DNA of 35,272 nt from a bacterium (GTDB lineage: Bacteria; CG2-30-53-67). The notes under the pieces are model-generated. The model was not told the DNA's origin, did no database searches, and worked only from the letters and a program-made list of their open reading frames with translations. Below, piece by piece: positions 1 through 15,990 of the stretch (positions are counted from its first letter, which is position 1; each line of letters begins with the position of its first letter). The stretch spans positions 1 through 35,272 of the forward strand of contig CAKKPE010000153.1 of assembly GCA_919901565.1 (NCBI GenBank), given 5' to 3'. The position numbers and the translations under genes were made by a program.

Positions 1-95
1 AGAGTTCAAAGAGTTCAAAGAGTTCAAAGAGTTCAAAGAGTTCAAAGAGTTCAAACCGCTTGAACCTTTTAAACGGTTTGAACACTTTGAACGAT
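1..95. repeat. TTCAAA / TTGAAC short-period repeat array
   Basis: Positions 1-57 are a nearly perfect tandem array of the 9-mer GAGTTCAAA. It turns into inverted TTGAAC words up to 95, with AAACCG/CGGTTT symmetry. No ORF uses it. The same word recurs at 194-261, 22790-22837 and 25792-25837. It lies downstream of the tRNA cluster, where the spacer before a tuf gene would be expected. Confidence 0.85.
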
Positions 96-106
96 GTTTT
101 ATATCC

Positions 107-183
107 TGGAGCCCACGACCGGGATCGAACCGGTGAACCTCATCCTTACCAAGGATGCGCTCTACCGACTGAGCTACGTGGGC
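107..183 (-). tRNA. tRNA-Thr(GGT)
   Basis: The reverse complement folds as a cloverleaf: acceptor GCCCACG pairs with CGTGGGC, the T-arm carries GGTTCGATCC, and the anticodon loop TTGGTAA gives anticodon GGT. The discriminator is T and CCA is encoded (107-109). It is the last of four tRNAs read in the order Thr-Tyr-Gly-Thr. Confidence 0.97.
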
Positions 184-193
184 ACGAATAAGA

Positions 194-261
194 AACCGTT
201 CAACATGGTTCAATCGGTTCAAGCCGTTTAAACCGTTTGAACGACTTGAACCATCTTGAAC
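194..261. repeat. GTTCAA/TTGAAC inverted repeat array
   Basis: The left half carries GTTCAA words and the right half TTGAAC words around a near-palindromic centre (CCGTTTAAACCG-like), so it could fold as one long imperfect hairpin. It sits between tRNA-Thr(GGT) and tRNA-Gly(TCC), inside what should be one precursor transcript. Confidence 0.75.
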
Positions 262-272
262 TCTTATTCTAA

Positions 273-347
273 TGGAGCGGGAGACGGGATTCGAACCCGC
301 GACCCTCAGCTTGGAAGGCTGACGCTCTACCCCTGAGCTACTCCCGC
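273..347 (-). tRNA. tRNA-Gly(TCC)
   Basis: The reverse complement begins GCGGGAGTAGCTCAG and ends CTCCCGCTCCA. The anticodon loop CTTCCAA gives anticodon TCC, which reads GGA/GGG glycine codons. The T-loop GGTTCGAATCC is present and CCA is encoded. Confidence 0.97.
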
Positions 348-3194: not shown

Positions 3195-6119
3195 TCAAAA
3201 CAAACTCCCTTCCACCTTTTGCCGTGTCAGTTTTGAAAACTCCATGATCTCTTTGATGGACGCACCTTTGTCCCGCATAGTATAGAAAGTCGTCTCGCCC
3301 AGCAGGACATAGTGCCACTCGCATCCCATCCTGTCCTCGGGATTCAATTCATTTATTTTTTTCAGTCTGTATAGCGTCCCCAGTTCCTTCTGTCTGACGT
3401 TCGCGTCCTTAACGTCTTTCTGCGCCTTGGTCTCCACGAGGTAAAGGTCCGCCCCGATCTTGACAATAAAATCCGGATAATAAGGAGACAGCATACCGTC
3501 CGTGCGGATATAGTTGATATGGGCGAAAGAATGGTAATAATCGCTGATCTTGAGGAAACTGTTCACTTCCGGGTCTCCATCACAGTACAGAATAAAGTTC
3601 TTCTCCAGATCTCCTTTATTCGAGGGATACGGCAGCCGCTCGTAGATCGTCTTTGCGGCTTCGAGTGAAAAATTCTCCCGCATCTTAAGCTCATCGATTT
3701 CAGAAAAAAACTTCTTGATCACGACGGCGTCTTCGACCCGGATATTGTTCTGCATATCGTAGATGGTCTGGCTCACTTCTTTAATAATGTGCTGTGTGAT
3801 CCCGGCCTGTGATAGGAGCAGCACCCTCCAGTTGTTTTCCACGAACGGATCAAAGGGCTGGTTGAACAGTCGGTTCTTAATAAAATCGTCGATCACCTTG
3901 ACCAGCATCACGTTGTTGATCTGCATGAACGGATAGTTTTTGGCACCCCGTCGGCCGGATGTACCAAACGTACCGCTGATTACCTTGACGATTTTTGCAA
4001 GGAATTCATTATAGCTCTTTGCCGTAAAGAGGTCTCCCGCCACATGGTATTCTCCGAAGCGGGTCTTAACGGTCACTTCCTCGGAAATAAACGACTCCCC
4101 TTCTTTTGGCGCCATTTTTTTCAGTTGATCGAGACTGTACCAGTCAAACTCCGCAAAATACTCGGCAGAGGGATCCATCACATGAAGGATCTCTTCTTTG
4201 TCCTGGACAATAATCGGCCAGTACAGATCATAGTCTTTGTAGTTTTCCTTCAACCCCACTCTGATAATGTCACCGAGTATGCTTTCACGGTCCACAGGCA
4301 GATCGTGCGATTCGCCGACAATCCCTTCCTTCAAGAGGTCATCATAGAACTCGTTAAACGCAGGGTGCTCGATGATACTCAAGATGTCGAGATAATTGGA
4401 CGGCTCCTGCTTCTTTTGCAGCACCCTGATCCTGTTTTCGTCTTTAATGTCCTTATAATCCTGCTCCCGCCACATGAGCCGAAGCCCCCGGCCGATGATC
4501 TGCTCAAGAAGGATCGGTGCCTGGGATGAGCGAAGAGGAACGATCACGCAGATATTGCTCACATCAAACCCTTCACGAAGCATTAGCACGGACACGACAA
4601 CCTTCGGCTTTTCATGCCGGTCCATATTAAAGAGCCGCTGCTTTACATCTTGCCACTCTTTAGCAGGGATCGAGCCCTTCCGATCCGAATCGATTTGCAT
4701 CACATCGTCGGCACCCAGCCCCTCACTGTCCACAAGAAAGTCAACGACCTTGGGTGAAACGTTCGTATCCTCGCAGATGACCAGCATCTTGGGATGTTTG
4801 TCGCTCATGCCGGACTTATCTTTTGTCAGTTCCACAAACTGCTGATCCAGTATCTTCAGCTTCTGCAAACCCGCCCGAAGCATCAACTTCTGGCCGTCCG
4901 AAAGGCCGATTACCGTATTCCCGTCGCGCACTGCCTTGAAGTCCAGTTCCATGGCCGCGATCTCTTTGCGCTTGTCGAGCGCAATGGTCTTAACCAGGCC
5001 CTTGTGGATGGCGGTCTTGAGGTCGAAATCCACGATGATGTGCGGAAAATAATGCTTAGTCCGCTTCTGGCCGCTGCCGGTAACGTCATAGGGCGTCGCT
5101 GAGAAATCGATCTGAACAAAGCGGCTCCCCTTTCCCTCGGCTATCTTGTTCAGCGACTTCTGCCACTCCACTTCCGATACGATCCCGGCCTTCTTGGTCT
5201 CGTGGATGTGATGCGCCTCATCGTTGAACACGACAAGATTATCGAGTTCAGCCAAGTATTCGATCTCCCCGCCGCTCAGGTATTGATTGTCCAGCGACTC
5301 AAGAGCATGCCCTGCCGATGTCCCGGGCGTGACCGGCAAAAGTTCCTTCACCGCCCCGGAGGGGTCTTCCAGAGGCGATACAGCTGTCGCCTCTTCTTTC
5401 TCCTCCTCGCCCACCAGCGCATGCCAGTTTGTGATCGCTATCATTCCGTCGCCAGTCACCTTCTTACCGATCTCTTCTTTCTTCACTACATTGGTCTGGA
5501 TGAACCCGAAGAGTATTTCTTTATACGCACGCGGAATGAATAGCTCCTCGAACTTATTGAAGTCCGATGTCTCGAAGCTTCTTGTCCCTCCCGGCTCCTC
5601 CTTGCCCAGGTATGCGTCCAGCAGGCGCTCATACACGATCAGGCCCGGCGCAACGATCAGGAAGCGTTTTGAGAACCTGTTGCCCGGCTTCTCCTCGAAC
5701 TTCGCGTTCAGATACTGCCAGATCAAGAGCGCATTCAAGACCCAGGTCTTCCCCGTGCCGGTCGCCATTTTGAGGCAATACTTCGGATGGCTGAACTTGT
5801 CCTTTTTCAGGTACGTCAGGTCCATCTCCGCCGCAACCTCATCGCTGATTAATGAGTACATGTCGAACACGGAATCGGTTTTTAAAATTTCATGGAGATA
5901 GACGGTGTTCAGAATGGCCTGTTTTTGACCGAGATGGAAATTGACACTACGAGACTCGCAGAACGTGTCATTAAACCAGAACCTGAGAAGGTCTTGGGTT
6001 ACAGGACTTGTTTTTGAGAAAAAGCTGCCGTCCTCCCATGCCTTGTTTACCTGGGCGGTAAGCTCTTTAGCAAATTTGAGCGGTACGTCACGAGTGCCGG
6101 TATTTACGGAAACGGTCAC
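3195..6119 (-). CDS. res: Type III restriction endonuclease Res subunit
   Basis: This 974-residue superfamily 2 translocase-nuclease is the restriction subunit of a type III system. It works with Mod, hydrolyses ATP and cuts unmethylated DNA. Visible motifs are Walker A MATGTGKTW (about 118-126), DEAHH (300-304), FSATP, and the late helicase motif QIIGRGLR. A C-terminal PD-(D/E)xK nuclease is shown by PDFIVKIGADLYLVETK (PD near 882, E-T-K near 896-898). Length and domains look complete and no frameshift is visible. The start is GTG at 6119, with GGGAGA about 8 nt upstream. It is separated from mod by 603 bp containing a dispersed repeat and repeated AATTGACGG boxes, so it may have its own promoter. 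Confidence 0.93.
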   Translation of the reverse strand: MTVSVNTGTRDVPLKFAKELTAQVNKAWEDGSFFSKTSPVTQDLLRFWFNDTFCESRSVNFHLGQKQAILNTVYLHEILKTDSVFDMYSLISDEVAAEMDLTYLKKDKFSHPKYCLKMATGTGKTWVLNALLIWQYLNAKFEEKPGNRFSKRFLIVAPGLIVYERLLDAYLGKEEPGGTRSFETSDFNKFEELFIPRAYKEILFGFIQTNVVKKEEIGKKVTGDGMIAITNWHALVGEEEKEEATAVSPLEDPSGAVKELLPVTPGTSAGHALESLDNQYLSGGEIEYLAELDNLVVFNDEAHHIHETKKAGIVSEVEWQKSLNKIAEGKGSRFVQIDFSATPYDVTGSGQKRTKHYFPHIIVDFDLKTAIHKGLVKTIALDKRKEIAAMELDFKAVRDGNTVIGLSDGQKLMLRAGLQKLKILDQQFVELTKDKSGMSDKHPKMLVICEDTNVSPKVVDFLVDSEGLGADDVMQIDSDRKGSIPAKEWQDVKQRLFNMDRHEKPKVVVSVLMLREGFDVSNICVIVPLRSSQAPILLEQIIGRGLRLMWREQDYKDIKDENRIRVLQKKQEPSNYLDILSIIEHPAFNEFYDDLLKEGIVGESHDLPVDRESILGDIIRVGLKENYKDYDLYWPIIVQDKEEILHVMDPSAEYFAEFDWYSLDQLKKMAPKEGESFISEEVTVKTRFGEYHVAGDLFTAKSYNEFLAKIVKVISGTFGTSGRRGAKNYPFMQINNVMLVKVIDDFIKNRLFNQPFDPFVENNWRVLLLSQAGITQHIIKEVSQTIYDMQNNIRVEDAVVIKKFFSEIDELKMRENFSLEAAKTIYERLPYPSNKGDLEKNFILYCDGDPEVNSFLKISDYYHSFAHINYIRTDGMLSPYYPDFIVKIGADLYLVETKAQKDVKDANVRQKELGTLYRLKKINELNPEDRMGCEWHYVLLGETTFYTMRDKGASIKEIMEFSKLTRQKVEGSLF

Positions 6120-6192
6120 TATGTAAGTCTCCCTGACGTTAGCTTGAGCTATATAATCATCGGCAAAACATCAGCTTTTCAATTGGTTAGCA

Positions 6193-6242
6193 AATAATTG
6201 ACGGGACAATTGACGGAATCCGCCTTTAGGCCGTCAATTATT
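6193..6242. promoter_or_regulatory. Repeated AATTGACGG boxes upstream of res
   Basis: AATTGACGG occurs at 6196-6204 and 6208-6216 as a direct repeat with 12-bp period. Its reverse complement CCGTCAATT occurs at 6231-6239. AATAATTGACGG at 6193-6204 pairs perfectly with 6231-6242, so two alternative hairpins are possible. The site lies 75-125 bp before the res start, with a weak promoter (TTGAAA, then TGATTAT) between them. It could be an operator for res; this is inference. Confidence 0.45.
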
Positions 6243-6635
6243 CTTTATTAGTCGCCAGCGTGCACCCGCTCCATGACCATTCAGCACTCTCTGTTCTTTA
6301 GTCCACAGAACGAATAATCCCAATCTTTAGCAGCTATTTTAGCTCATTATTATCCATATAAATCAATTCGTTATATCTTGTAGTCGTCTAAAAAATCGTT
6401 TAAATCGTTTAAAAAAGTTCGTCTTCTTAGTCTCTTGCAAAAGTTGTGTGGGTGGTTAAACAAGCGCACCATGAACGGCAAAAATAATTTCTTTTAGGTT
6501 TTTCCAATTTTGAGCCTTATGAGGCTCATAATCGGCAAATTGAAAATATCAATATAACTACAATAAGTTAAGTGATACCAATAAGAGGCGATCACCACTT
6601 TGAGTCCGTGTTTTAATTACCGTTTCACTGAAGAT

Positions 6636-6706
6636 CGTCATTCCTGCGAAGGCAGGAATCCAGTCTTTTCAAAAGCCTCTGGATGCCGGATCAAGTCCGG
6701 CATGAC
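6636..6706. repeat. Dispersed two-hairpin repeat (CGTCATTCC...GGCATGAC type)
   Basis: Two perfect hairpins lie side by side: ATTCCTGC/GCAGGAAT (loop GAAG) and TGCCGGA/TCCGGCA (5-nt loop), bounded by GTCAT/ATGAC ends. From general knowledge this is a very common intergenic palindromic repeat in proteobacterial and related genomes. It starts 17 bp after the mod stop codon, in the gap between mod and res. Confidence 0.8.
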
Positions 6707-6722
6707 AGAAAAAATACAAACT

Positions 6723-8693
6723 CTATTTCACCTCCTCCACCACCACGCTCTCAAACCCGAACACGTCCACGGCCTTCACGCATATTTTCCGTTTGCCCTT
6801 GACCTTCGGCGCAAGAATCTTGATCTGCTTCACCACGCGGAATGGATCGGCGTCATTCTCCGTATTCTCACGGTAGTCCTGCCATTTGCTCCGAAACGTT
6901 GTGCCGTCATAGTCCGGGTCCACACTCCAGTATTCGATGAGCGCAAGCGGGTCATTGGCGATAATGTCCTGCAGCTTCTCCTTGTTTGCTTCATCGAGAG
7001 GCAGCGCGTCCGGAGAAAGCAGAACATAGTTGTCCAACTCTATCGTGATCTCCTCGATGTCGGCTGAATGGTTGTTGACGACCGGCTTCTTGATCGTAAT
7101 GTACTGAAGCGACGAGAATCGTATCTTGCCGCTCTTGAGCAGAGATTGATAGCTGGATTTAGACTTGAGCTTATCCAGGAGATCCGGCGGGATCACCAAC
7201 ACCTCCAGCTTGTCGTCGTTGAGATTCTTGATCACCGTCGCGATGTCAAAGGCAAAATTCCATCCCAGCACGATGACCTTGCCCCAGCCGCCGAGGAATG
7301 ACTCCCGCAGTTCCTGTGCGCGCTTCAGCGTCGCATAGCCCGTGAGCTTCGAAGGAGAATCAACCATCACCAGCGTCCGGCTGTTCTTGATGTAGCCGAG
7401 GTTGCGGTTCGGGTTCTGGTCATCCGGGAATGGCAAAGCGCCGTAAAGGTTCAGCACGACATTCGCCAAGTCTCCCACACGCCTGAACATTCGAGAGGAT
7501 GTGAAGGCTTCCTTCTGATAGTCGCCTATAGACTGATAGATGAAGGGCTTGCTCTCCATGTCGATGAGCCGCTTCCGGCTGATCATGATGGCGGGCTTAC
7601 CAATGTCCGACATGATCCAACGACGGCCAAGTTTTTCCGCAACAGCACCGGTAGTTCCGGAACCCATGAAAAAATCAGCCACAATAGAATCCTTATTGCT
7701 TGAAGCTTTTACCATTTTCTCTAAAACTGCTTCGGGTTTCTGTGTATTATAGTCAGTACGTTCATTTGCAACTTGATTGACAATATCGATCAGCCAATAA
7801 TCGTGTGGGGCAAAACCTTTTCCTATATAATTACGCACGACAAGCTCAGGGTGTGTCTTCTCCCATTCAGGATCAACGTCTTTTGCTGATTGTATCGGAC
7901 TTCCTGAAATTCCCCTACCACACAGACGATAGTAACCAATTTCATCCTTCAGCTTGAATTTCTTAATAGTAGCTTCCGCGTATGGTTGAAGAACACCCTC
8001 TGCTTCCCAGTTGAAGATATGCTGATCGGTATTTTTTGAATACAACAGGATATCATCATGCTTTCTATTCCAATATTTTTTTGAAAACTGACGGGTCTGA
8101 TAACACCATACAACATTATTTAAAAAGTTATCCTTCCCAAAAATGTCATCCAGCAATATTTTTACATAATGCCCTACATGCCAATCAAGATGCACATAGA
8201 GCGAACCTTGACTGCTCAATAGCTCCCGCATTAGCACGAGGCGCGGATAAATCATCTGCAAATAGCTGACAGTACCATCTTTCCATGTATCAGAATAGGC
8301 AAACTGCTCCAGCACGGTCGGCTTTTGCTCGATGGTAGTTCCGGGAAGAGTGATTTTCGTGCGGTAGTCGGCCTTGCTGTCAAACGGTGGATCGATGCAG
8401 ATGAGGTCGATCTTGCCACGCATGGAAGGGAGCCCAGTCTCCAGATCGCCAGCCAGCAGCGCCTGCATCACGAGCAGGTTGTCGCCATAGATCAGCCGGT
8501 TATGCCATTCCTTCTCGTTCAGCTCTTTAACCTCGCCTCTGAACAACCCCGACTTGTCCTTCGACGGCAATACATACTCGTTCGTCTGAAGCGTCAGCTT
8601 ATTCGGTCCCGACAGCCGCTCCAGTATCTTCTCAACTTCCTTCTTGCCCTCGGCAACAATCTTCGGCAGTTGTTCAATTAATGACTCAGCCAT
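6723..8693 (-). CDS. mod: Type III DNA-methyltransferase Mod subunit
   Basis: This 656-residue adenine-N6 methyltransferase of the beta class carries DPPF (motif IV, 101-104) before FMGSG (motif I, about 342-346), the order used by type III Mod proteins. It recognises the target sequence, protects the host DNA, and guides Res. The N-terminus is predicted coiled coil. The stretch between the motifs (about 195-300) should hold the target-recognition domain. The DNA there (roughly 7660-8300) is clearly more AT-rich than the ends of the gene, which suggests domain exchange. The start ATG at 8693 has AAAGGGG upstream. It lies 45 bp behind the ParA-like gene in the same direction. Length is normal for Mod. 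Confidence 0.93.
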
Positions 8694-8738: not shown

Positions 8739-9731
8739 TTACAAGGCGATCCCGGTTTTACCAGCGATCTTCTTCGCCAACGTAAGGAAATCACCGTACG
8801 CTTCCTGCACGGCTAAGGCATGGCTCCCGATTGCGCCGTCAGCGGAAGTGAGCCGGAAAACCGGTTTTCTATGTTCCTGAGACAAAGGAATAAGGCTCCG
8901 ATAGTGTTTGATAGTTGCAAGACACAGGGGATCATCTTCAAGCTTCAGATTCTGCGCTGGTTCATTCAGCACGCTTTCGCGATAAACAGCCGGGATGCGG
9001 TTGACCCACTTGTCATACGCCTTGACCGGGCGATTCAAGCGGACGCTGTGCTGCTGACAAAGATATCCAGATGGCTGCATGTCCCCTTTGGGAAGAGAAA
9101 ATTCCGGCTTTGACCAATTGTCCAGGCGCTTCTTCCAGAGACTGCGCCAATTCCGAAGTGTGGGGCCGAGGTTCTTCAAACCTTGTAATGAGAACAGGTC
9201 CGCGCCGAGAGGTATGATAACGTAGTCCGTGGATATGAGCACAGACCGATTAATGGCCCCGAGATTTGGGCCGACATCAACCAGCAACATATCCGCTTCA
9301 ACTTTTTTTGCCGCCAATTGCATCACTTGCCAGAACGCGGTAAGAATACGGAAAGGCCGATAGAGGTTGTTGTCACCCATGCTGTCAGGCCATACGTTTG
9401 CGAGGTTTTCTTCAAAAGCGGACAAGGCGACATCACCAGGCAACAAATATAGATCGGTCGTAATCCTTTGTAACACAGGCTCCCGTAGATCGCCGACACC
9501 TGTCAGCGGCTGAATTGCCCTGTAGATCGTGTTTGCCTCGTTGTCGAGGTCCCATAAGGCTTCGAGTTTTCCCTCGTCCAGGAAGGCGGAAGTAAGGTTC
9601 GCCTGTGGGTCCAGATCAACAGCCACCACCCGCTTTCTTTGTTCGGAAAACATCCAGGCAAGGTGATAGACCAGCGAGGTTTTCCCGACGCCGCCTTTGT
9701 TGTTAAAGAAAGTAATCACCTTCGTATTCAT
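8739..9731 (-). CDS. ParA/MinD-like AAA ATPase
   Basis: This 330-residue P-loop ATPase has the deviant Walker A motif KGGVGKTS (12-19), AVDLDPQANLT (A'), and LLVDVGPNLGAINRS (Walker B region). ParA-type proteins partition DNA or position complexes. No ParB gene or parS-like repeat is visible, so a plasmid-partition role is unsupported here. The ATG at 9731 has GAGGAGA 6 nt before it, and its first bases overlap the TGA of the AlbA_2 gene (ATGA), so the two are translationally coupled. mod follows after 45 bp. The arrangement suggests a helper of the restriction-modification locus or a separate two-gene module; the substrate is unknown. Confidence 0.8.
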   Translation of the reverse strand: MNTKVITFFNNKGGVGKTSLVYHLAWMFSEQRKRVVAVDLDPQANLTSAFLDEGKLEALWDLDNEANTIYRAIQPLTGVGDLREPVLQRITTDLYLLPGDVALSAFEENLANVWPDSMGDNNLYRPFRILTAFWQVMQLAAKKVEADMLLVDVGPNLGAINRSVLISTDYVIIPLGADLFSLQGLKNLGPTLRNWRSLWKKRLDNWSKPEFSLPKGDMQPSGYLCQQHSVRLNRPVKAYDKWVNRIPAVYRESVLNEPAQNLKLEDDPLCLATIKHYRSLIPLSQEHRKPVFRLTSADGAIGSHALAVQEAYGDFLTLAKKIAGKTGIAL

Positions 9732-10945
9732 AGCGTTCTCCTCATCGTGCAAAGCACCGCAGTCGGCGTAACCGTAAACTCGGCCAGCGGATTGCCGTTA
9801 TCCCGCAATTCCTTCTGCGCTGTCGCAATACCCACACCGAAGCGCTGAACAAAGCCGTAGACCCTCATCGCGTCGGCGATATTAGGGTTTCGATAATCGG
9901 TAAAGCCCGGCTTGCCGAAATTCTGGGCCGTTACTTCGCCGAACGGTCCGCCCGGACTGATGACTTCTATGCGGTCGTTGAACCAGTATATCCTCACCGG
10001 AGAATTTGTTCCTTCATATGTCCTGTGCATCACGGCATTACGGACGATTTGCTGCAAGGCGGGCATGGGATAATCGACGTCACGCTTTTCAGTTTGCGCA
10101 GCGACCAAATCCACACTGACCCTGTTATGCGACTCCATTTTTTCGTCGATTCGCCGCAATAGCTGACCAATCGATCCATCGATGGCATCCTCATCAATCA
10201 CCGGGGCGGATAATTCAGTCCCATCCAGGCGTAAAAACTGTATGAATGCTCCAGGAATAAAATCCTGGGGCCGGTTGCCGAGTACCAGCAGCCCGAGAAC
10301 AGTCGGCACCGGTTCATCAAGTGACGCGATCATGCCGCAGGAAGCAAGTCTTTGTTCATACGACCGGTCATTCGCTTCAAGCACATCGCGTGCGAACGCA
10401 TTGGGCAGATACTCCTGCTCGAAAAGCATCTTATTCAGATCTTTCGCTGACGCGCTTGGTATTGGATGGATATCAAACGGTATATCCCTGAAGCGTCTTT
10501 TCTCATTGAGGATTCGCTCATCCTGTGCACTCGCGATAGCCCGTCTCGGTCCGGTTCTTATCCAAATTCTGCCTTTGTATCGCACTGGCGGCGTATCCGA
10601 CGGCTGTACGGTTACTACCGCTATGTCTTTATTCTTGAGTTTTCTTTTCTCGACCGTAAGCGTGGGCGGAGACAACGTATTGCCATCAGTCTTAATATCC
10701 GCCAATGTTCGGAGAAGCTCGTCGGTGACGGATAAGCCTGATGGAGAACCATCGTTCTTAGCGCCGATGAAGAGGACACCGGGCTTACGATGATCAGGCA
10801 GATCATTGGCAAAGGCGCATACTGCCTGCCGCCCTTTCTCCGGAGCATCGCCGTCCCAGCTTTCCTTGCGTTCCGCAAGATCGGATTCACTATCATCAAG
10901 AAGAGCTTCCAGTTCCGCATCATTATAGGTCATTTTTAAGGTCAT
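9728..10945 (-). CDS. AlbA_2 (schlafen-type) domain protein with GHKL ATPase-like C-terminus
   Basis: This 405-residue protein opens with an AlbA_2 putative nucleic-acid-binding domain (AERKESWD, then VLFIGAKNDGSPSGL near 60-75). It ends with an HATPase_c_4-like domain (QQIVRNAVMHRTYEG, IEVISPGGPFG, FGVGIATAQKEL). Such proteins are often annotated as transcriptional regulators or ATP-dependent helicase-like factors, but the biochemical role is unknown. The frame extends ten codons further, into duplicated TPR-gene DNA. The ATG at 10945 has AGGAGA at good spacing and is preferred. It is the first gene of an apparent AlbA_2-parA-mod-res string and overlaps parA by 4 bp. Confidence 0.8.
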   Translation of the reverse strand: MTLKMTYNDAELEALLDDSESDLAERKESWDGDAPEKGRQAVCAFANDLPDHRKPGVLFIGAKNDGSPSGLSVTDELLRTLADIKTDGNTLSPPTLTVEKRKLKNKDIAVVTVQPSDTPPVRYKGRIWIRTGPRRAIASAQDERILNEKRRFRDIPFDIHPIPSASAKDLNKMLFEQEYLPNAFARDVLEANDRSYEQRLASCGMIASLDEPVPTVLGLLVLGNRPQDFIPGAFIQFLRLDGTELSAPVIDEDAIDGSIGQLLRRIDEKMESHNRVSVDLVAAQTEKRDVDYPMPALQQIVRNAVMHRTYEGTNSPVRIYWFNDRIEVISPGGPFGEVTAQNFGKPGFTDYRNPNIADAMRVYGFVQRFGVGIATAQKELRDNGNPLAEFTVTPTAVLCTMRRTL

Positions 10946-10958
10946 GTATTCGTCTCCT

Positions 10959-11134
10959 GTAATCAACGCTCTCAATGTTGCCTTCGATCCGTTCTCCCTG
11001 ATCCAGCCTCTCGACGAGCGCCTTGTTCACGATCGCCACTTCGTAATCCGGATCGATCTCCAATGCCTTATTCAGACATTCCAGCGCCCTGGCCTTCTCC
11101 CCCAAACCCGCGTAAGCGAGCCCAAGGTTGCCAT
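10959..11134 (-). pseudogene. Internally deleted duplicate of the TPR gene
   Basis: About 175 bp here match the 3' part of the TPR gene at 16139-16312 at roughly 95% (NLGLAYAGLGEKARALECLN in both). The DNA then jumps at GTTGCC directly to the sequence around the start of that gene (17019 onward). About 712 bp, not a multiple of three, are missing, so the ATG at 11134 is out of frame with the TPR segment. The copy ends where the AlbA_2 gene begins. It is a remnant, probably not a functional protein. Confidence 0.8.
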
Positions 11135-11417: not shown

Positions 11418-12515
11418 TTAAGAACTCATATGCCCCGCAAACATAGGTCTCACTTTACCCATAAGATTTCGCAGATGCGTATAGGGCAGCATTTCCTCGT
11501 GATGCAGCCGCCCAACCACGATCGATGGATGAATGCCGAGTTCCTTTGCGAAGGCAAGAACAGCGCTCCTCGAAAAGAACGGCTTGGTTCTTGTTACAAA
11601 AGCATTGAAGCGGTCCGGCGGAATCAAAAAATCCCGAGCCTTCTGATTAATTTTTCGCTCCATCTCATTTCCCGGATCATTAATAATATCCTGATCAAGA
11701 TAGCTTCCCGAAGTTCGTGCGCCTTCCATTACATGCACCAGCTCATGCATGAGTGTGAACCAGAAATTGTCGATCCGATCCATTCTGAGAGAGAGCGCAA
11801 CGACCGGAGAGCTTTTGTCCAACCAGAATGCCGCACCGTCTACACGAGTCTGGGGCAGGTGCGGCACAAAGACAAGGCGAATGCCAAGATTGCACAGGAT
11901 CTGCGGAATCTTGGCAACTGCCGGCTCGTCTACCGAAAGAGCGGGCAAATCCTGGACTGCCTTCCGTAATTTCTGCGCTTCATAGGCTGGGCACTTTATC
12001 TTTTTTGCATCTATCTCCGTCTTTCTCACCCATGCTAAAAGCGATGGAGTGTCTATAAGTCCCCCTTCGGACTTCCGGAAATTTACCGCAATCTTCGGCT
12101 GCTCCTCCAGACTGAAGATGCCAAAATAATTAAGCACTTCGGCTTCAAGCTTATCGATATTCTTTGATGGTTTGATCCAATGGCGCTTTGCCAACTCTTT
12201 GACCGGGGCGATGCTGTATAATTTCGCCCTGCGAACAACATGGTCTGAGTTATGCTGCTCATGATGAAGCATATCCAACCGGTATGCGGACTCAAGATTC
12301 AACCAGAACTCCGGCGTGGTCCCGATGGCTTTGGAAAACAGCAAAGCAGTCTCCGGGGTTATGGCCTTCTTGCCAGCAAGGATCTCATTGATCGCCTGCA
12401 AAGGCTTGCCCGTAATCTCAGCGAAATCCCCCTGGGTCCAGCAGCGAGCATCCAGTTCCTCTTTGAGGATCTCTCCAGGCCGTATCGGTTTGTATGGCTT
12501 ATTCATTTTCTCCAT
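11418..12515 (-). CDS. higA: HigA-like antitoxin fused to ImmA/IrrE-family metallopeptidase
   Basis: This 365-residue protein begins with an XRE-type helix-turn-helix of the HigA class (PGEILKEELDARCWTQGDFA... GKKAITPETALLFSKAIGT, about 13-68). It continues into a COG2856-like peptidase domain with HELVHVMEGA (HExxH zinc site, near 258-262) and a downstream ERKINQKARDFLIP helix. HigA antitoxins usually have about 100 residues, so the fusion is large. It likely represses its own operon and neutralises HigB. The peptidase part could control antitoxin or repressor turnover by analogy with ImmA/IrrE; this is inference. The start ATG lies 1 bp after the higB stop codon. No defect is seen. Confidence 0.88.
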   Translation of the reverse strand: MEKMNKPYKPIRPGEILKEELDARCWTQGDFAEITGKPLQAINEILAGKKAITPETALLFSKAIGTTPEFWLNLESAYRLDMLHHEQHNSDHVVRRAKLYSIAPVKELAKRHWIKPSKNIDKLEAEVLNYFGIFSLEEQPKIAVNFRKSEGGLIDTPSLLAWVRKTEIDAKKIKCPAYEAQKLRKAVQDLPALSVDEPAVAKIPQILCNLGIRLVFVPHLPQTRVDGAAFWLDKSSPVVALSLRMDRIDNFWFTLMHELVHVMEGARTSGSYLDQDIINDPGNEMERKINQKARDFLIPPDRFNAFVTRTKPFFSRSAVLAFAKELGIHPSIVVGRLHHEEMLPYTHLRNLMGKVRPMFAGHMSS

Positions 12516-12516
12516 C

Positions 12517-12816
12517 TTAATTCCCGTAGTGTTTGTTGATCTTAATGATCACTACGATCTTTCCGTCTTTGTCCTTTTCAATGGTGAGTATCAGTCTCCA
12601 TGCATTATTCAGCCGAATTGAATAACGGTCTTTCCCGCCCTTTAGCTTCTCGAAATGGAGGCTCTTTAAGGCCCTCAAGTCCCGCTCGTCCGCCGCCGCT
12701 TCGATCGTCCTCACCCGCCTGACAAACATCTCGGCTATGCCTTGGGGATAGCGTTCGCTGCCAGCACCATGCAGGTAAAGTTCTTCCAGCCGTTTGTCCG
12801 CGAAGCGGTATCTCAA
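12517..12816 (-). CDS. higB: HigB/RelE-family toxin
   Basis: This 99-residue RelE-superfamily protein of the HigB type contains HFEKLKGGKDRYSIRLNNAWRL, the core RelE-fold strand region, and ends KINKHYGN. HigB toxins cleave mRNA at the ribosome; the family role is known, activity here is inferred. The best start is TTG at 12816, because a strong GGAGG stands 7 nt upstream and no in-frame ATG precedes the conserved N-terminus (RYRFADKRLEELY). It precedes the antitoxin, the usual higBA order, and both are read from one strong promoter. Confidence 0.88.
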   Translation of the reverse strand: MRYRFADKRLEELYLHGAGSERYPQGIAEMFVRRVRTIEAAADERDLRALKSLHFEKLKGGKDRYSIRLNNAWRLILTIEKDKDGKIVVIIKINKHYGN

Positions 12817-12833
12817 TAATTTTCCTCCGTTCC

Positions 12834-12862
12834 ACTATAGCGAAAAGCTTTATACTTGTCAA
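12834..12862 (-). promoter_or_regulatory. Strong sigma70 promoter of higBA
   Basis: TTGACA (12857-12862) and TATAGT (12834-12839) on the minus strand are exactly 17 bp apart. Transcription would start near 12827, leaving a leader of about 10 nt before the higB TTG, with GGAGG inside it. Confidence 0.8.
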
Positions 12863-13024: not shown

Positions 13025-13051
13025 TTATTTACTTTCACTTAAAGTAAATAA
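13025..13051. other. Perfect 11-bp inverted repeat at the truncation point of an AlbA_2 fragment
   Basis: TTATTTACTTT (13025-13035) and AAAGTAAATAA (13041-13051) are exact complements around a 5-nt loop. The last codons of the AlbA_2 fragment lie inside it. It may be a terminator-like hairpin or the edge of a lost element. Confidence 0.5.
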
Positions 13052-13220
13052 GCGGATCATAGATACCGACGATCAATAACCCACCATCCGTGTTGGCCAT
13101 AGCAACAATTGACTGCAACACTTTATCAACACCCGCGTTAGCGGTACCCAGACGCTTGAATTCGAGAGTCCGAGATTCAGCGGGTATGGCGAGAATGGTT
13201 TCTATCAGTTTATCGTTCAT
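13035..13220 (-). pseudogene. N-terminal fragment of an AlbA_2 domain protein
   Basis: This 61-residue frame shows the beginning of an AlbA_2 domain: SRTLEFKRLG, then VLQSIVAMANTDGGLLIVGI. It stops where the domain would continue (GIYDP is followed by five residues and TGA). Full proteins of this class have 400 or more residues, so it is a truncated remnant. No clear ribosome site precedes the ATG. It is not a copy of the AlbA_2 gene at 9728-10945, since the residues differ. Confidence 0.65.
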
Positions 13221-13327
13221 ATTTAATTGGCGAACCGTCGTACGCTATTGGGATCTGACTTGAAAATTGTCCTGCCCGTTCGAAGGCCTTTACCGCTCCG
13301 TAGGGTTTAAGATTGTGCTGCAAACAT

Positions 13328-13489
13328 TTATGCAGCCGCCTTCTTTCCCATCAGGATTTCGTTCACGGCCTGGAGGGGCTTCCCGATAATCTCCGCAAAA
13401 TCACCTTGGGTCCAGCCACGGGCATCGAGCTCATCCCTCAGGATTTCACCCGGCAAAACGGACCTGTGTGGCCTCTTTATGGTTTCCAT
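13328..13489 (-). pseudogene. Truncated HigA-like antitoxin (second higBA copy)
   Basis: The ATG at 13489 opens METIKRPHRSVLPGEILRDE, closely similar to the N-terminus of the intact HigA at 12515. Similarity continues through GWTQGDFAEIIGKPLQAVNE, then the frame ends after GKKAAA at a TAA. Only the first part of the HTH domain remains (53 residues). Confidence 0.8.
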
Positions 13490-13490
13490 C

Positions 13491-13580
13491 TTAGCCCCCA
13501 TAGCGATTGTTGATCTCGATGATCACCACGATCTTTCCGTCTTTGTCCTTTTCAAAGGTCAGAATCAAGCGCCAAGCCTT
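13491..13580 (-). pseudogene. 3' remnant of a HigB-like toxin (second higBA copy)
   Basis: Twenty-nine codons, from AWRLILTFEKDKDG to INNRYGG and TAA, match the C-terminus of the intact HigB (about 23 of 28 residues). A stop codon stands directly before the first matching codon, so the toxin's N-terminal two thirds are lost. The stop-start spacing to the HigA remnant is the same as in the intact pair. Confidence 0.8.
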
Positions 13581-13632: not shown

Positions 13633-14835
13633 TCAAAAATCCACTAAATAACCACCCAAGGGATCTGAGAGATCGAAATCGGCCATGGCGATATATTCCT
13701 TCACGAAATCGACAATGTCCTTTTTCCTGCTTGTATCGGAGCAGACATCCGTCATGTTTATGAGATACCCGTGCAGCCGGGTGCAGGCTTGCTTCAGATC
13801 CCATATTTCGTGCACGGCTTGCTGCTCCGGCAGATGCCAGAAGTCGTTGATAGGCATGAACCGCGGATTATAAAACACCGAAGCGTGTTCCACCTCAAGA
13901 GCGGCAACCTGTTCCTTGAGCGACGCAATGTAGAGTTTCAGCTTCTCGTCGGGTAAGGTGCCGAGATCATGGCTTTCCGATGCGACCCATTCCATTTCGA
14001 GTTTGAGAAGCGCGGCAATGTCCTTGCCGGCATAAGCCACTGTTACCTTCTTCATCAGCTCTTCTTTCCGCATTTTTTCCGCGCCGTCCATTTCGGTGTC
14101 CGGATGCAGGGCCTTGGCCAGCGAAAGATACAGGCTCCGCATGCTTTTGGTCTGCTGAATTTCTTTCCGTTTTCTGAGTTCCTCCTGCTCAATCTGCTTC
14201 TTCGACTTTTTCCTTCCGGAACAGCGTCTTTCCTGCTGTTTCCCGTTGTTCATAATTTCGCTCTGGATGCGGCTCGCAAAGCGCGCCATTTCCTCGGGCG
14301 TGCCGCCCATTTCTCCGAAATCAATGTCCAGGCCGAAAGCGCCCTTAACCTCTTCCGAAAACATCCGCTTCATGGCATCCTTCTGACTTTGAACTTCCTG
14401 TTGGTAATTCGATCTTGACCAGGCATTGTAAAACTGCTCGGTTTCAACGTCGGGCTCAATCTGGGAAAAGGCCTCGTCGCACAGAATCAGGATCACGTTG
14501 CGCACGTCAGCGGCCTGGCGCTTGCCGTATTTGATCCTTTTCGTGGTTTCACCCAGGGATTTCGCCAGCGACAGCCTGTTCGCTGCGATAGATCGCTGCA
14601 GTGCGGGTATATCCGCGTTGTACGCCTTGAGCACGGCTTCGAGCTTCGCAGAGTCCCGATGAATCGCGTTTTGAAGCTGTTCGATGCGTTTCGATAGTCG
14701 GTTAAAGGTCTGCTGATTTTTAGTCAGCTTCTTGTTTTGCACGGCGGCAATCTTCAGGTCTTTATTACGCGATCTTTCAGTTCCTAACTCACTATCATCA
14801 AACGGAGAACATGTTTTGTCGTAATGTTGGGGCAT
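13633..14835 (-). CDS. Coiled-coil protein with an internal J domain
   Basis: This 400-residue protein of no named family begins with about 100 residues of probable coiled coil (KDLKIAAVQNKKLTKNQQ...). A lysine/glutamate-rich stretch lies near 205-230. A J-domain-like segment follows, with SLYLSLAKALHPDTEMDGAE and the HPD motif at 244-246. J domains stimulate Hsp70 ATPases, so it may recruit DnaK to a client; client and role are unknown. The C-terminal 130 residues are unassigned. The ATG at 14835 has AAGGAG about 10 nt upstream. It follows the DUF4325 gene after 31 bp in the same direction, so the two look like an operon. Confidence 0.7.
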   Translation of the reverse strand: MPQHYDKTCSPFDDSELGTERSRNKDLKIAAVQNKKLTKNQQTFNRLSKRIEQLQNAIHRDSAKLEAVLKAYNADIPALQRSIAANRLSLAKSLGETTKRIKYGKRQAADVRNVILILCDEAFSQIEPDVETEQFYNAWSRSNYQQEVQSQKDAMKRMFSEEVKGAFGLDIDFGEMGGTPEEMARFASRIQSEIMNNGKQQERRCSGRKKSKKQIEQEELRKRKEIQQTKSMRSLYLSLAKALHPDTEMDGAEKMRKEELMKKVTVAYAGKDIAALLKLEMEWVASESHDLGTLPDEKLKLYIASLKEQVAALEVEHASVFYNPRFMPINDFWHLPEQQAVHEIWDLKQACTRLHGYLINMTDVCSDTSRKKDIVDFVKEYIAMADFDLSDPLGGYLVDF

Positions 14836-14866
14836 TTCAGACGCGCTCCTTTTAAAAAGAGTCCTT

Positions 14867-15904
14867 TCACTCCGCTGCGTTCGACAGCGCCCGTTGAATC
14901 ATCTGTTGAACATGCTTATTCGCCCGTAACGACATGAGATCTATGTGCGGGTGTTGCTTGACGAACACGCGGAACACTTCGTCGGCGAAGGCCTGGCCGA
15001 TGGTCTCGACATTATCGAAATCCAGGACCACCACTTTGAACCGGTCTACCCGCTCCATGAGGCGCTTTCCCTGCGAGCGTGATATAAGCTTTTCATTTCC
15101 GTACTGCGCCAGTTTGACGGGAACGACGGTCTTGGTGAAGCCGTACTCATCGCCGGTCGTGAACTCGTCTACCACCTTCTTCACGGTCCTTGCGGTATGG
15201 TTCTTCAGCTTCATGAACACGCCGGTTCCCGTCTGGAATTTTTGATTTTCCAGAATCCAGTCTTCATCCTCCGCATGGGTGTGCGAAAAAAACGCGTTGC
15301 CCGACAGGATGCGGAAATCATCGAACATCCTCGAGGAAAAGAATATCCCCTCCCCGGTGTGCCGCTCCGGATCAGTCGTCAGCTTGCCCTTGGATAGTTC
15401 CAGGACCGCATGACGTTCGTCCTCCAGGCCCAACGCATTCTGGATCTTCTTGAAAATGCCGACACCGTTATCAAACAGGACCAGTTCGGTGGACATCGCC
15501 GTTCTGGTCATGTTGATGCTGACCTGCTTCCCATCGGAATGATCGATCGCGTTATTCATCATCTCGGTAAAGCCATAGTGCCAGATGTCCCGAACATTGT
15601 CCGGCAGCTTGCCGAGCTTCGGCTCGATGTCATTTCGCCAGATGCTGTCCTCTGCGGACTTGTTCTCCAGGGTAATGATCGTTTCCCATTGGAGCAGCGG
15701 ATGCAGAAAGTAGTGGCGGTTTTTCGTGCTGCCTGACACGATCAGCGCCCCCTGTTCCACCAGACGCTGAATGTGTTTGTTGACAGCCTGCCTGGTTATG
15801 TCAAAGGTCTTGACCGCAAGGTTAGATACGTCACGCGGGTGGCTTTCCACGTTATCGAGAATAAACTGACGTATATCTTCGCCTCTTTTTCTAATGCCGA
15901 CCAT
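14867..15904 (-). CDS. HTH - GHKL ATPase - DUF4325 (STAS-like) protein
   Basis: This 345-residue protein has three parts. An N-terminal winged-helix (about 1-65: DITRQAVNKHIQRLVEQGAL) comes first. A GHKL ATPase domain follows, with N-box EMMNNAIDHSD, G1 LFDNGVGIF and G2 HTGEGIFFSS. A C-terminal STAS-like DUF4325 domain ends it (VVVLDFDNVETIGQAFADE). It resembles an anti-sigma kinase and its antagonist joined in one chain with a DNA-binding head; that reading is inference. The ATG at 15904 has AAAGG upstream. A strong promoter overlapped by AACCTTA boxes precedes it, consistent with autoregulation by the HTH. The J-domain gene follows after 31 bp. Confidence 0.8.
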   Translation of the reverse strand: MVGIRKRGEDIRQFILDNVESHPRDVSNLAVKTFDITRQAVNKHIQRLVEQGALIVSGSTKNRHYFLHPLLQWETIITLENKSAEDSIWRNDIEPKLGKLPDNVRDIWHYGFTEMMNNAIDHSDGKQVSINMTRTAMSTELVLFDNGVGIFKKIQNALGLEDERHAVLELSKGKLTTDPERHTGEGIFFSSRMFDDFRILSGNAFFSHTHAEDEDWILENQKFQTGTGVFMKLKNHTARTVKKVVDEFTTGDEYGFTKTVVPVKLAQYGNEKLISRSQGKRLMERVDRFKVVVLDFDNVETIGQAFADEVFRVFVKQHPHIDLMSLRANKHVQQMIQRALSNAAE

Positions 15905-15936
15905 ATTAACCTTTTATTCATATGTTAGGTGTAGGC

Positions 15937-15990
15937 AACCTTACCAAAAAAGATTGTAAACCTTATATATGTTATTGTCAACCTTATATG
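15937..15990 (-). promoter_or_regulatory. Strong promoter covered by AACCTTA operator repeats
   Basis: On the minus strand TTGACA (15976-15981) and TACAAT (15953-15958) are 17 bp apart. On the plus strand ATTGTAAACCTTATAT (15953) and ATTGTCAACCTTATAT (15974) are a direct repeat with one mismatch and a 21-bp period. A third AACCTTA stands at 15937, 22 bp before the first. The boxes therefore lie on one face of the helix and cover the -35, the -10 and the start region. They are probably bound by the HTH domain of the following gene. Confidence 0.75.

Follow-up and report, generated by a model that had tools for sequence, protein, structure and literature searches.

The closest described counterpart of the regulator treated here is the CapKS system, the Controller of associated pathways (Chambers et al., EMBO J 2026, PMC13373217). 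CapK is an ssDNA-activated kinase with the domain order HTH-STAS-GHKL. It phosphorylates CapS, a STAS-wHTH repressor with a conserved phospho-serine that binds TTAA palindromes, and together the two proteins control immune operons in response to DNA damage. The gene capS follows capK in 443 of 443 cases, and 88 of the 443 systems lie directly downstream of a restriction-modification system (PMC13373217). In a literature search for precedents, CapK and CapS alone came close. DUF4325, the STAS-like domain of the new regulator, proved essentially undescribed in the literature covered, with mentions in two unrelated papers.

The locus lies in the window, a stretch of 35,272 nucleotides on a bacterial contig. 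Two minus-strand genes, here termed D and J, are separated by 31 bp (Table 1). The initial annotation had described them as neighbours behind one strong promoter inside an island of defence and toxin-antitoxin genes. Both open reading frames and the gap were recovered as described, and the promoter agrees with the consensus in 11/12 positions. The island setting was corroborated by type III-like restriction-modification genes, SLFN_AlbA and a HigB/HigA-IrrE module. A scan of the D-J gap for a terminator-like site found none, and J is probably read from the D promoter as a passenger in a predicted co-transcript. At a probability of roughly two in three, D acts alone as an autoregulator spread by horizontal transfer, which would bind its own tandem repeats and sense through its GHKL and STAS-like domains, with J as a downstream passenger.

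Table 1. Features of the window and domains of the D protein.
Feature	Position	Strand	Remark
D	14867..15904	(-)	345 aa; winged HTH, SpoIIAB-like GHKL ATPase and STAS-like DUF4325 in one chain
Winged HTH of D	residues about 8-66		MarR-like HTH under the Pfam cut-off; AF2
SpoIIAB-like GHKL ATPase of D	residues about 80-240		Pfam, AF2, Foldseek
STAS-like DUF4325 of D	residues about 255-342		Pfam, AF2
J	13633..14835	(-)	400 aa; coiled coil and J-domain, HPD at residues 244-246
Promoter TTGACA-N17-TACAAT	15981-15953	(-)	-35 within repeat 1, -10 within repeat 2
Operator-like repeat 1, AAGGTTGACAAT	15974..15985	(-)	holds -35 TTGACA
Operator-like repeat 2, AAGGTTTACAAT	15953..15964	(-)	holds -10 TACAAT; 21 bp from repeat 1
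Degenerate third repeat, AAGGTTGCCTAC	15931..15942	(-)	22 bp from repeat 2; sequence reading
AAGGTT half-repeat	15908..15913	(-)	just ahead of the D start codon; weak, chance possible; sequence reading
HigB-like toxin (PF05015), then HigA-like HTH with IrrE-type protease	11418-12834	(-)	the latter matches PD-Lambda-2_B, 168 bits
Broken second HigB/HigA-IrrE copy	13328-13580	(-)	directly past J; N-terminal part of the antitoxin, C-terminal fragment of the toxin
Truncated SLFN_AlbA_2 domain	13035-13244	(-)	41/118 positions; remnant of a gene resembling 9728-10975
Type III-like restriction (ResIII) and methyltransferase genes	3195-8693	(-)	
ParA-like gene	8739-9752		adjoins the restriction/methyltransferase genes
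SLFN_AlbA gene	9728-10975		adjoins the restriction/methyltransferase genes

The D protein had been read as DNA-binding, anti-sigma-kinase-like ATPase and STAS-like domains in one chain, and each domain was recovered. The Pfam cut-offs are exceeded for DUF4325 (PF14213; 55.2 bits, gathering cut-off 23, residues 278-320) and for HATPase_c_2 (27.7 bits, cut-off 27.4, residues 100-200). AlphaFold2 with a 23-member alignment returned a model (pLDDT 86, pTM 0.79) in which a winged HTH is followed by a GHKL domain, and an alpha/beta STAS-like domain closes the chain at its C-terminus. The best solved-structure match of the central domain is SpoIIAB, the sporulation anti-sigma kinase (Foldseek E 3.7e-5, TM 0.73 by target length). 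D has the N, G1 and G2 box residues and the fold of SpoIIAB-like GHKL (Bergerat) ATPases, and two alignments show no variation at E114, N118, D145, G147, G149, G184 and G186; H182 is likewise invariant. The family phrog_3364 matches D partially, over residues 62-239; the match does not extend to the STAS-like domain.

Residues 302-306 of the STAS-like domain read I-G-Q-[AG]-F almost without exception. This motif has no serine, and its G303 and Q304 occur in 23/23 rows of alignment A2 and in 22/23 of A3. The motif was equated with the serine position of SpoIIAA and CapS by its sequence pattern, not by superposition. Because a near-invariant Gly-Gln stands at this phospho-serine position, switching by serine phosphorylation is less likely, and switching by docking and nucleotide state is the more likely mode. 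Phosphorylation of a serine in cis is unlikely, while a different acceptor is possible.

The repeats in front of D match each other over up to 16 bp in the window. In distant relatives, GTTGACAAT stands in the same arrangement upstream of D, and other D clades carry different repeated words at the same upstream places. For a general test, the best direct-repeat score at any lag of 9-45 bp was taken from the 160 bp upstream of D and compared with dinucleotide shuffles. The control set comprised 205 intergenic upstreams belonging to genes other than D at these loci. This design replaced a fixed 9-mer repeat test, which was weak for many loci. Of 52 distinct D upstreams, 35 had their best lag at 21-24 bp vs 31 of 205 controls (Fisher p = 6e-13), and so did 20 of the 30 loci found after the hypothesis had been formed (Fisher p = 1e-8). 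The relatedness of the loci makes these p-values optimistic, but most D proteins share only 30-58% identity with the D of the window, and their repeat sequences differ. Other best lags were 11-12 bp (7 upstreams) and 43-44 bp (5 upstreams), and 47/52 lie near multiples of the helical repeat. The lags of control upstreams were flat. Repeats were significant at p<=0.05 against shuffles in 32/52 D upstreams and in 8% of controls. Some D loci, e.g. L186, L196 and L221, have weak or no repeats by this test.

The D motif sites cluster within 200 bp upstream, and most D loci, the window included, have repeats only there. At six loci (L130, L131, L134, L135, L136, L137) the upstream repeats recur at or just past the 3' end of D. 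A 41-bp repeat 72-112 bp after D in L134 is near-identical to the upstream copy, spacer included. A looping operator and a mobility signal are candidate readings of the 3' copies in this clade. D is flanked on both sides by one and the same hairpin-like sequence in L128 and in L123 (AAAGCCCAGAGGAGATATC; AATTCCGCCATTGGGCG), which again suggests a duplicated flank.

The similarity of repeat motifs was correlated with the identity of D residues 35-48, the recognition helix. Among 41 loci, which are related and whose motifs were picked by eye from upstream DNA with the helices not looked at, the Mantel r was 0.355. With the effects of the GHKL domain, the STAS-like domain and the remaining wHTH taken out, a partial r of 0.318 (p 0.002) was left. 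The corresponding partial values were near zero for the rest of the wHTH and for the GHKL domain, while the STAS-like domain retained 0.135. Recognition helices and repeats pair as RQAVNKH with GGTTGACAAT, RTTVHRH with TAGTTATAA and SLNTVYRY with TATAGTTAAA. Several of the motifs look like promoter hexamers.

The 2.96-Mb genome of the window contains the tandem site a single time, at the promoter of D itself. In eight relatives, the D gene accounts for 18 of 19 paired GTTGACAA sites, and the remaining one is in G390. A search of the window genome for a regulon gave 42 one-mismatch single sites vs 27 for a reversed-pattern control, which is not a clear enrichment. Since tandem sites are nearly confined to the D gene, D seems to be dedicated to autoregulation, with no regulon of such sites in view; single sites elsewhere are possible. 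An autoregulator without any other visible target is odd, which suggests a further output of D beyond autoregulation.

Relatives of D were collected from 386 genomes, of which 24 (about 6%) gave a match, from further phyla and from IMG/VR. D is present in IMG/VR and in many prophages; tblastn searches of plasmid and phage collections found none. The settings, with neighbours named by eye from their sequences, range from positions between housekeeping genes and in islands to lone genes in prophages near terminases, integrases and tail genes. A codirectional gene follows within 60 bp at 6/71 loci and is a different gene each time. Across 59 D loci, a neighbour family was shared by 5 loci at most. 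The largest cluster, a DUF4143/AAA ATPase in 5/59 loci at varied positions, was rejected as a conserved partner. This DUF4143/AAA_14 ATPase was seen near D in L132, L178, L183, L188 and L189, with varying sides and strands. D is an orphan gene without a conserved partner.

The second gene had been annotated as an HPD J domain behind a long coiled coil, which was upheld by its family. The J protein of the window scores 15.6 bits against Pfam DnaJ, under the cut-off of 27.8. DnaJ is matched by 26 of 32 family members (best 9e-07), and HPD is invariant in all 32. The structure model has a helix-HPD-helix arrangement behind the coiled coil, with helices 212-242 and 251-269 flanking HPD. A J domain was absent from the whole-chain Foldseek matches. 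At the family level the J-domain is genuine. Annotators named the relatives 'J domain-containing protein' or 'molecular chaperone DnaJ'; the genes beside them differ from locus to locus. Plasmid proteins with these names from Burkholderia, Pandoraea, Azotobacter and Thiothrix are homologous to the J of the window over the full length, have an invariant HPD and share its helical layout; unlike the window J, they all stand without a D-type neighbour. The idea of a conserved J partner was rejected, as only orthologous synteny among Nitrosomonas MAGs emerged. A search of viral contigs did not find J.

In the preferred reading, the winged HTH of D would bind the tandem direct repeats, which overlap both boxes (-35 and -10) of the D promoter, and D would in this way control its own transcription. 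D would probably repress itself by covering both boxes, a sign taken only from the overlap with the hexamers. Several D protomers may sit side by side, about two turns apart. The SpoIIAB-like ATPase and the C-terminal STAS-like domain would form the sensing part within the same chain. Nucleotide and/or ligand would alter the GHKL-STAS contact, change the grip of the protomers and release the array. In the window, J would be transcribed from the D promoter as a passenger. A wider reading is tentative and somewhat less likely than not: D may represent an undescribed class of one-protein partner switches, with repressor, SpoIIAB-like ATPase and STAS-like module in one chain. They would occur in prophages and islands of many bacterial lineages, each clade having a tandem operator of its own that evolves together with the recognition helix, and would capture whichever gene stands downstream.

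The initial annotation had offered a switch model, in which the regulator releases its own promoter and the J protein directs Hsp70 to a target. Its first half, an action of D on its own promoter, has strong comparative support from tandem repeats that track the recognition helix. Its second half, a functional pair of D and J, is not supported by the co-occurrence of the genes. A dedicated two-gene switch, with D controlling the operon and J recruiting Hsp70 to D or a target, could draw on the close spacing, the single promoter, the lack of a terminator-like site and the genuine J-domain. Its chances are nevertheless very slim, as the adjacency is not conserved. The J loci comprised 80 of 463 confirmed relatives from a GTDB scan with the J alignment and 6 annotated plasmid loci; in 78 of these 86, the available sequence reaches 1.3 kb or more beyond J on its upstream side. 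Searches by phmmer and with two D profiles gave a D homologue near J in 0/86 among the matches listed. The sole weak profile match (L048, E 0.002-0.004) is marginal and concerns a different, non-adjacent open reading frame. J relatives with 37-45% identity stand without D. In the opposite direction, no J-family gene was found near D relatives outside the window in the genome and IMG/VR loci examined. On these neighbourhood counts the two-gene system was rejected both ways, and D and J are almost certainly not a two-part system. The initial annotation had itself named rare adjacency elsewhere as refuting its model, and rare adjacency is what the counts show. J is an ordinary member of a stand-alone J-domain family, unrelated to D. 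Since 40 relatives of the window genome lack J and most of them lack D, both genes are patchy, and they appear to have arrived independently. One genome of the same family (G005) retains only a 78-aa STAS-like remnant of D (L138:1662-1898), so D has been lost as well as gained.

Three further explanations compete with solitary autoregulation by D. The most serious of them, though unlikely, makes D a CapK-like kinase that acts on a substrate encoded away from the locus, either a CapS-like repressor or some other STAS protein. Autoregulation would then serve homeostasis and phosphorylation would be the output. The intact N, G1 and G2 boxes, the resemblance to SpoIIAB and the phosphorylation of CapS by CapK (PMC13373217) agree with this explanation, and another output is plausible because the tandem sites are confined to the promoter of D. 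However, every reported capK is followed by capS while D loci have no recurrent neighbour, the domain order of D differs (HTH-GHKL-STAS), and its own recognition helix tracks its predicted operator. An explanation of the repeats as recombination or mobility sites, with D as a mobile cassette of a single gene whose product binds the cassette ends, is improbable. The patchy distribution, the frequency in prophages and the 3' copies of the six loci, including the long repeat of L134, would fit a cassette, but at most D loci the repeats stand only upstream, D has no nuclease or recombinase domain, and the promoter hexamers of the window fall within the repeats. Still less probable is binding of the repeats by another host factor, or a mere resemblance to promoter boxes. 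The TTGACAAT-type repeats do hold both a -35-like and a -10-like hexamer; against this, the lag preference is absent in the 205 control upstreams, the window repeats match over up to 16 bp, and the sequences of other clades differ and track D's own recognition helix.

With D read as a solitary autoregulator, the anonymous family of proteins with DUF4325, HTH and GHKL gains a testable mechanism, namely a predicted operator per clade together with a predicted recognition helix. A loss of serine-phosphorylation switching is predicted for the same family. What appears new is the set of tandem repeats upstream of D and an orphan switch with a co-evolving predicted operator. Closing the two-gene hypothesis spares effort on a complex of D, J and DnaK.

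Among the known partner switches, SpoIIAB/SpoIIAA and RsbW/RsbV resemble D in the central domain, which is closest to SpoIIAB, and in the STAS-like domain; unlike these pairs, D fuses both domains in cis with a DNA-binding domain. With CapKS, D shares the anti-sigma-kinase-related GHKL domain, the STAS and HTH domains and an autoregulatory theme, and the D of the window likewise lies in an island with restriction-modification and immune genes. CapKS consists of two proteins, whereas D is one chain in a different order. The gene directly downstream is capS there, while J follows D in the window and no neighbour recurs in the 59 D loci. The STAS domains of the CapS/SpoIIAA type hold a phospho-acceptor serine, and D has Gly-Gln at the motif equated with it. 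D further differs by its tandem direct repeats and usually stands without an adjacent immune operon. As domain order, adjacent capS and phospho-serine all fail, D is neither CapK nor CapS. It is best read as a one-chain relative in kind of CapK/CapS, switch-like in outline, which would widen the CapKS theme of 2026 to a single-gene form common in prophages.
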